DNA from: a bacterium
GTDB taxonomy: Bacteria > UBP4 > UBA4092 > JAOAEQ01
DNA length: 64,000 nucleotides
Direction: 5' to 3'
NCBI GenBank assembly: GCA_026416715.1
Contig: JAOAEQ010000015.1
Location: 16,390-80,389, forward strand
A program made the position numbers and the translations under genes. Positions 9,753 to 14,475 of this stretch are shown in pieces. Each line of letters opens with the position of its first letter. Position 1 is the first letter of the stretch. The notes beneath the pieces were generated by a model. It searched no databases and had not been told where the DNA came from. It was given only the letters and a program-made list of their open reading frames with translations.

Positions 9753-10328
9753 TCATTTTTCAAAAATCCGAGCGACGATTTCGTCAGCAAGGTCGGTGAT
9801 AAGGCGGGTGCGGGCATCCTGTTCGTTTTCATACTCGATACGGGAACGTTTGGGAACATAGGTTGTCGTAGCGAGAACTGCTTTCCGTTGCCGGATAATT
9901 TCGTTCGTGCGGGTATCTTTCAGAGTAAACGATGCGGTCAGTGATAACGAATATAAATCTACTTCACCTGAACGGTCGGTCGCCAGAATATTTTGGGTAT
10001 AATTAGTTATCGTTCCGGATAAAACCACATCGGCGGTCGCAGGATTATTCACTACCTGCAACCGTTTATCCATAATCAACTCTTTCACAACCGCATTGGT
10101 TAACTTCTCTTCCATCCCATATTGGAACGTGTCGTTGCTAAACATCTGAACATATATAGTTCTCACCGAACCGGGTAGATTATTCGGCGGAATCTGCGCA
10201 CAACCGGTTATCCAGTAAGCAATAAGCAGGAGGAAGTTTGCGGTAGCGCAGATTCGGAAAAATATGCTGATAACGAAATTTTTATCCCTTTTGTGTTGAA
10301 TTATTTTGTGTTGAATTATTCGGGTCAT
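9753..10328 (-). CDS. lptE: LptE-like LPS-assembly lipoprotein
   Basis: 191 residues from ATG 10328, chosen because GGAG lies about 10 bases upstream; ATG 10349 is an alternative. A hydrophobic segment ends in lipobox ITGC, so the protein is probably an outer-membrane lipoprotein. The text RTIYVQMFSNDTFQYGMEEKLTNAV, then DKRLQVVNNPATADVVLSGTI, follows the LptE family pattern (P/Q-x-F-x-N-x-T...G-x-E, then ADAVLxG). LptE plugs LptD and helps place lipopolysaccharide in the outer leaflet. Its first codons overlap the end of the upstream kinase gene by 47 bases, including a tandem 15-bp repeat. The family call is good; orthology to LptE in the strict sense is inferred. Confidence 0.75.
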   Translation of the reverse strand: MTRIIQHKIIQHKRDKNFVISIFFRICATANFLLLIAYWITGCAQIPPNNLPGSVRTIYVQMFSNDTFQYGMEEKLTNAVVKELIMDKRLQVVNNPATADVVLSGTITNYTQNILATDRSGEVDLYSLSLTASFTLKDTRTNEIIRQRKAVLATTTYVPKRSRIEYENEQDARTRLITDLADEIVARIFEK

Positions 10329-13300: not shown

Positions 13301-14475
13301 ATCGTTGATGTATGGGCAACATAAATTCTTTTTTCTTCTCCAGCAGCAACCACAATATCGAGAACACCATCGGCATCAACATCGGCGATAAGTGGCGTAT
13401 GTAATGGTTTTCGACCTAACGCTACCGCAGCGATTATTTCCCCCGACTGCGGATGATATGCCCGAAGTTTCCCATCTTCACAGCCAACTACCACTTCGAA
13501 ACTTTTATCATTATTAACATCAGCGAGGACAGGATCTCCCCGACTTATCCCATAGGTAGGCATATTCCAAATCGCTGTTCCTGATTCTCCATCAAGAAAA
13601 TATATCATGTTATCCGCACTCACCACCGCAAGGTTATATCCCGCATTGTTTTTTCGGGGATATAATGCTGGTTGACCAGCGATAACTCCACCGGTCAAAA
13701 ATTGCCAAAGCATTTCACCGGTGTTCCCATTTAAACAGTACACCCGATTATCTTCACTCCCGATAACCACCTCTATTACTCCATCTTGATTGATATCAGC
13801 GACCGCTGCTGAACCAGTTATTCTACCTCGCGAACGAAATGACCATAATTTGGTTCCCGTTGCGCCGTTATATGCGTACACAAACCCATCTGCTGCGCCG
13901 ATAATAATATCCGGAATCTGGTCTTGAGTTAAATCTATTACACAGGGAGTAGAATAAATCGGGCCGGTAGATTTAATGGTCTGCTGGCTCGTTCCCGTTT
14001 TACCATTAATAATATGCAGGTATCCATTTTCGGTAGTTACCACGATATCAAGGATGGTATCGCGATTCATATCCACTACTGCCGGAGATGAACTGATTTC
14101 ACCTTTACACGAACATTGCCAAACCGATTGACCGGTTCGTCCATTCAACCGATACAATCTGCCATTCGCAACGGTAACATAAATATCATAGAGACCAGAA
14201 TTATCAATATCCGCTATAGCCGGCGAACTGTAAACGATACTGCGGGTTGGATATGACGTTTTCCAGAGCGGTTGTTTCGTTTTTCCATCAAACGCATAGA
14301 TGTTGCCTCGGTTATCCCCGCAAACAATATCGAGCGTTTCATCGCCACTAATTTCGCCAACGGCTGGATTCCCGCTAATATATCCTTCACACTGAACCGA
14401 CCAGCCAGACCGAATCACATCCGCAAAGCAAGAAGTACCTAGTACCAAGCACAAAACACTAACCACTACATACAT
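10282..14475 (-). CDS. Giant membrane Ser/Thr protein kinase with extracytoplasmic beta-propeller and TPR domains
   Basis: 1397 residues from ATG 14475, chosen because a signal sequence ([20 protein letters not shown]) starts there; in-frame Met codons lie upstream at 14511 and 14598. Residues ~20-410 hold repeated PQQ/FG-GAP-like blades such as [20 protein letters not shown] and [12 protein letters not shown] TPR unit follows, then one membrane segment at ~482-505, then about fifteen TPR units (~520-1080), and a Hanks-type kinase at ~1120-1385 with [23 protein letters not shown], DFG and [10 protein letters not shown]. All catalytic motifs look intact. By inference the propeller senses something outside the inner membrane and the kinase signals inside. 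It lies between holA and the lptE-like gene, probably in one transcript with lptE. Confidence 0.85.
   Translation of the reverse strand: [1397 protein letters not shown]
10291..10320. repeat. Perfect tandem 15-bp repeat in the kinase/lptE overlap
   Basis: TTGTGTTGAATTATT occurs twice back to back (10291-10305 and 10306-10320). It is read in two frames on the minus strand: as NNSTQ twice at the C-terminus of the kinase and as IIQHK twice near the N-terminus of the LptE-like protein. Confidence 0.95.

Follow-up and report, generated by a model that had tools for sequence, protein, structure and literature searches.

Textbook bacterial receptor kinases of the PknB/PknD kind carry the kinase at the N-terminus and place the sensor after the membrane segment. 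The PknB/PrkC/Stk1 group, whose catalytic domain is the closest to the one described here, follows this kinase-first plan with PASTA repeats outside. Reviews and surveys also record kinases with propeller sensors, again with the kinase first, namely PknD and AfsK (PMC3601408, PMC1262709). Like the protein described here, PknD of M. tuberculosis is a single-pass Hanks kinase with a propeller sensor on the outside, however, its kinase is N-terminal, its propeller is of the six-bladed NHL type and it has no TPR rod (PMC3601408, PMC1262709). Streptomyces AfsK likewise combines a Hanks kinase with PQQ repeats, but in the PknD-type order with the repeats at the C-terminus (PMC1262709). In PknG of Corynebacterium and Mycobacterium a TPR domain couples a periplasmic signal to a kinase whose substrate, OdhI, is an FHA protein (PMC8546545), although the TPR domain follows the kinase and sensing occurs through the separate GlnH/GlnX (PMC11032199). 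The TPR/WD40 kinases of the Planctomycetota resemble our protein in their long TPR or propeller repeats and, mostly, a single membrane helix, but their repeats lie after the kinase and are mostly periplasmic (PMC11032199).

The protein considered here has the sensor first. It is encoded in the window, by which we mean the whole 64,000-nucleotide stretch of bacterial DNA that was analysed, and consists of an exported propeller, one membrane helix, a TPR rod and a C-terminal kinase. The sequence-only reading had left it to be checked whether such an architecture is already well described; no description of this order was found in the literature searched, which had most subscription journals outside its reach. 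The gene is a single open frame of 1397 residues at 10282-14475 (-) with an ATG at 14475, and alternative in-frame starts lie upstream at 14511 (ATG) and 14598 (GTG). The features of the locus are as follows.

14636..15535 (-): holA, the upstream neighbour (TIGR01128, 1.3e-33), in the same order in the related genome G001
14422..14475 (-): export signal, residues 1-18, an N-terminal hydrophobic segment (KD 2.34); the start could be 14511 or 14598
13306..14415 (-): 8-bladed PQQ/FG-GAP beta-propeller, residues 21-390, putative periplasmic sensor (Pfam, 46-residue period, AlphaFold, BamB-like fold)
13093..13233 (-): helical stalk from propeller to membrane, residues 415-461 (AlphaFold helices 415-444 and 448-461)
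12967..13023 (-): single membrane helix, residues 485-503 (hydropathy peak 2.79; continuous model helix 466-514)
11203..12744 (-): TPR rod of ~15 helical hairpins, residues 578-1091 (Pfam TPR models; 30 predicted helices)
10336..11097 (-): Hanks-type Ser/Thr kinase, residues 1127-1380 (Pkinase 2.5e-61; best solved match PknB, 3e-60)
10705..10728 (-): catalytic loop HRDIKPAN, residues 1250-1257, motif intact
10582..10668 (-): activation segment [29 protein letters not shown], residues 1270-1298, with candidate phospho-sites T1283 and T1285
9753..10328 (-): lptE (PF04390, 1e-17), overlapping the kinase 3' end by 47 nt, with GGAG ahead of its ATG at 10328

A Pfam search of the whole protein returned a propeller of the PQQ_2/FG-GAP_3/ACSF4 type, then many TPR models, then Pkinase at 1129-1376, a layout far above chance expectation and in the order that had been claimed from the letters alone. 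Together with hydropathy and AlphaFold, it bears out the signal peptide, propeller repeats, one membrane segment, roughly 15 TPR units and complete C-terminal kinase of that earlier reading. Hydropathy shows two prominent hydrophobic segments, the N-terminal signal (1-25) and a stretch at 475-512 with its best core at 485-503. Protein kinases require ATP and hence a cytoplasmic location, and with a single helix in between, the propeller must be periplasmic and the kinase cytoplasmic on the basis of hydropathy and this need for ATP. The export signal agrees with this placement.

The propeller repeats recur every 46 residues exactly, as seen from peaks in the autocorrelation at 46 and 92, and eight of them are present, starting at 41, 89, 135, 181, 227, 273, 319 and 365. 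The structure prediction that had been proposed for this part gave a confident propeller fold: AlphaFold modelled residues 1-515 from 37 alignment rows at a mean pLDDT of 89, with the propeller at about 95; behind it come two stalk helices and a single long helix (466-514) that crosses the membrane. A profile scan of the contigs with the N-terminal alignment mostly returned generic FG-GAP/PQQ propellers, usable as propeller rows. The remainder (506-1397) was built from a two-row alignment and its kinase part is of low confidence and not reliable, while 30 confident helices, mostly at pLDDT 80-95, occupy 578-1091 and correspond to about 15 hairpins. The nearest natural fold to the propeller is BamB (Foldseek TM by target about 0.77, VIA Z about 39, ~20% identity), with designed propellers and YxaL scoring like it in the same comparison. 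The likeness is one of fold, as BamB itself is a separate outer-membrane lipoprotein and the BamB family model (TIGR03300) gives 76 bits against a cut-off of 285, too low for membership by score though the fold matches.

The kinase belongs to the Hanks type (PF00069), with K1158, E1177 and [20 protein letters not shown] present. Conservation extends to K1158, E1177, HRDIKPAN and DFG. The C-terminal kinases compared, namely the window protein and 38 others, retain intact HRDxKPxN and DFG without exception (39/39); as read from these residues, the catalytic motifs are intact. The candidate sites T1283 and T1285 lie in a TQT motif that we take to resemble that of PknB. By sequence, the closest catalytic domains are those of the PknB/PrkC/Stk1 PASTA kinases, however, the PknB/PASTA model (NF033483) scores 346 bits against a cut-off of 450, and with its C-terminal kinase the protein falls outside that family. 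It also falls outside the AfsK family (NF053615; 157 against 1300 bits), whose order is reversed. Of the two Pkinase matches found in its genome, it alone is intact. The other (L002:76-2142, on contig C6 of the window's genome, G000) is a kinase-membrane-FGE-sulfatase fusion in which HRN replaces HRD, probably an inactive pseudokinase. Kinases of this type are often accompanied by a PP2C phosphatase; a search of the window's genome for PP2C_2 found none, which counts against a receptor-kinase role. FHA proteins are present in this genome, and FHA-type genes adjoin related C-terminal kinases in G001 (L034, a Pfam match) and G356 (L068:5333-6301, judged by eye). In each of the two species representing the window's phylum, a double-FHA protein is encoded next to a ComF-like gene (L203, L204).

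Two species, the window genome and G001, represent the window's phylum, and both (2/2) have the protein with the same domain order and gene neighbourhood. The two orthologs are 27% identical in the propeller and 68% in the kinase, as would be expected for an adapting sensor joined to a conserved catalytic core, and their membrane-to-kinase lengths are 624 and 625 residues. Among the Sumerlaeota, a strong match occurs in 39/40 genomes and is of the receptor type in 36/40 by manual count, the remaining matches being HSP70 fusions. All complete Sumerlaeota ectodomains (26/26) match the propeller HMM, and in 30/33 the kinase lies 815-828 residues from the membrane helix. Rod length is close to constant per phylum, at about 820 or 625 residues, despite sequence divergence (L033, L035, L066, L067, L167-L199). 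The full plan of exported propeller, one membrane helix, TPR rod and C-terminal kinase is found in both lineages, a shared profile spans the two, and the plan is near-universal in the sampled Sumerlaeota. In the kinase tree the Sumerlaeota receptors cluster and are joined by HSP70-TPR-kinases of the same phylum (99/88), whereas the window pair lies near them on branches that are not firm, with the HSP70 fusions and P0004 of G001 falling between. The cytoplasmic HSP70-TPR-kinase fusion of the Sumerlaeota was present in 17/17 loci checked (L036:2399-5848, L194:2275-5538, L208-L222), with an HSP70 match of 5e-183 in P0007.

The wider survey suggested by the sequence-only reading covered 386 genomes with the two best candidates scored in each, a depth at which unrelated proteins sharing the layout may have gone undetected, and found the architecture in the window's phylum, the Sumerlaeota and one convincing further case, G356, with no other full match outside the two phyla. 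The G356 protein (L068:6306-10088) has a PQQ-propeller, membrane helix, TPR and C-terminal kinase. Its signal peptide is on a separate upstream frame and an FHA-like gene lies just upstream; the gene is probably split between signal peptide and propeller by a frameshift. Twelve further long kinases were inspected, 11 of which have the kinase near the N-terminus, while G257 reads signal-TPR-membrane helix-TPR-kinase, like G133. The sensor-first plan thus also exists with other outer modules, and from these sequences the outer module of sensor-first kinases seems exchangeable. Proteins with a signal peptide, outer TPR-like domain, membrane helix, inner TPRs and C-terminal kinase lie at L226:1161-5066 and L069:4330-7914, in two other lineages. 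C-terminal TPR-kinases as such are common, with many families in the survey. The domain order had been presented as inverted, which holds for the succession of propeller, membrane helix, TPR and kinase, however, a C-terminal kinase is not rare and the unusual element is the exported propeller plus membrane helix placed ahead of the TPR-kinase part.

The domain order, predicted propeller fold, intact catalytic motifs and conservation obtained by computation are best explained by a single-pass inner-membrane receptor Ser/Thr kinase with an N-terminal sensor, an account that we hold to be moderately likely when all of its signalling steps are included. The periplasmic BamB-like propeller would bind a ligand, which we infer to be most likely an envelope protein, peptide or glycan, and binding, relayed by the stalk and membrane helix, may alter how receptors, presumably as dimers, are paired or spaced. 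On the cytoplasmic side the TPR rod, its length fixed within each lineage, would determine how far the kinase stands from the membrane and is a probable binding site for substrates or partner receptors. Adjacent C-terminal kinases could then phosphorylate one another on the activation segment, and the phosphate would be handed on to targets in the cytoplasm, for which the genome's FHA-domain proteins are plausible candidates. PknG offers a precedent, as its TPR domain links a signal from the periplasm to the phosphorylation of an FHA protein (PMC8546545, PMC6069109), its input coming from periplasmic solute binding (PMC6069109, PMC11032199).

The strong conservation of rod length would also suit a constitutive, membrane-anchored scaffold kinase, in which the propeller merely anchors the protein to a partner or site in the envelope and cytoplasmic clients on the TPR rod provide regulation. 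Many related C-terminal TPR-kinases have no exported domain and carry an N-terminal membrane anchor only or none, and P0004 of G001 is a related C-terminal kinase without a propeller, all of which is consistent with this possibility. However, an exported propeller in every complete Sumerlaeota ectodomain exceeds the needs of an anchor, and we consider a scaffold unlikely, if the strongest of the competitors to the receptor kinase.

A narrower version of the receptor account, which we rate as slightly less likely again than the scaffold, has the BamB-like propeller monitoring outer-membrane or LptE/LptD assembly and the kinase tuning envelope synthesis. It draws on the gene neighbourhood, since in both species of the window's phylum the genes run ribD-ribE-ribBA-ribH-nusB-holA-kinase-lptE, the kinase gene overlapping lptE, and on the standing of BamB as the natural protein nearest to the propeller in fold. 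The neighbour from which envelope surveillance had been suggested is indeed LptE and the overlap is kept in both species, but the link is weak and is not kept outside the phylum: in the Sumerlaeota and G356 lptE is found elsewhere, beside lolA-like, PHP or rpsT genes, and no constant neighbour gene of the Sumerlaeota kinases was found. The BamB family score, far under its cut-off, also argues against this version. A link between the kinase and LPS transport as a general rule was considered and rejected, as it holds in the window's phylum and fails in the Sumerlaeota and G356. Being confined to the window's phylum, the lptE link is a lead rather than functional evidence, and envelope surveillance is best treated as a hypothesis. 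In E. coli, too, lptE lies beside holA, so the kinase may simply have inserted into an old gene pair.

The comparison with eukaryotic receptor kinases leads to a further and more doubtful possibility, a bacterial counterpart of IRE1/PERK, in which the periplasmic PQQ propeller would sense misfolded envelope proteins and signal through the C-terminal kinase, and the paralogous HSP70-TPR-kinase of the Sumerlaeota would do the same in the cytoplasm. It has been argued that a PQQ propeller gave rise to the IRE1 luminal domain (PMC3797127), and our protein has the IRE1/PERK succession of signal, PQQ-propeller-related sensor, membrane helix and C-terminal kinase. Unlike IRE1/PERK, it has a complete propeller, a TPR rod and a PknB-like kinase, and its Pkinase match ends at residue 1376 of 1397; the remaining 20 or so residues leave no room for the RNase (KEN) domain that follows the IRE1 kinase. 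The IRE1 luminal domain was absent among the fold matches listed for the propeller, an absence that excludes nothing. Given the PknB-like kinase and the missing RNase domain, we treat the resemblance as analogy; it is fair as a comparison of layout, extends to nothing beyond layout and provides no evidence of common descent, which a counterpart of IRE1 would not imply in any case.

A cytoplasmic propeller, with hydrophobic segments that do not span the membrane, is very improbable: the signal segment from ATG 14475 has no early basic residue and net charges are similar on both sides of the membrane helix (mean +2.8 before and +3.5 after, the latter greater in 17/34, and hence not decisive for orientation), but a strong hydrophobic helix (KD 2.79 in the window protein) stands at the equivalent place in nearly all orthologs, many have N-terminal hydrophobic segments, and a start further upstream would bring in a basic residue (one is gained from the in-frame ATG at 14511).

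C-terminal TPR-kinases and kinase-first kinases with propeller sensors were already known, and what is new against the literature searched is the exported propeller and membrane helix ahead of the TPR rod and kinase. Bacteria also build receptor kinases sensor first and kinase last, a plan that is near-universal in the Sumerlaeota and present in a second, tiny phylum, with the membrane-to-kinase reach held nearly constant while the sensor diverges. The family is well suited to studying how a signal received in the periplasm travels along so long a TPR rod, and to testing whether evolution produced sensor-first receptor kinases repeatedly.
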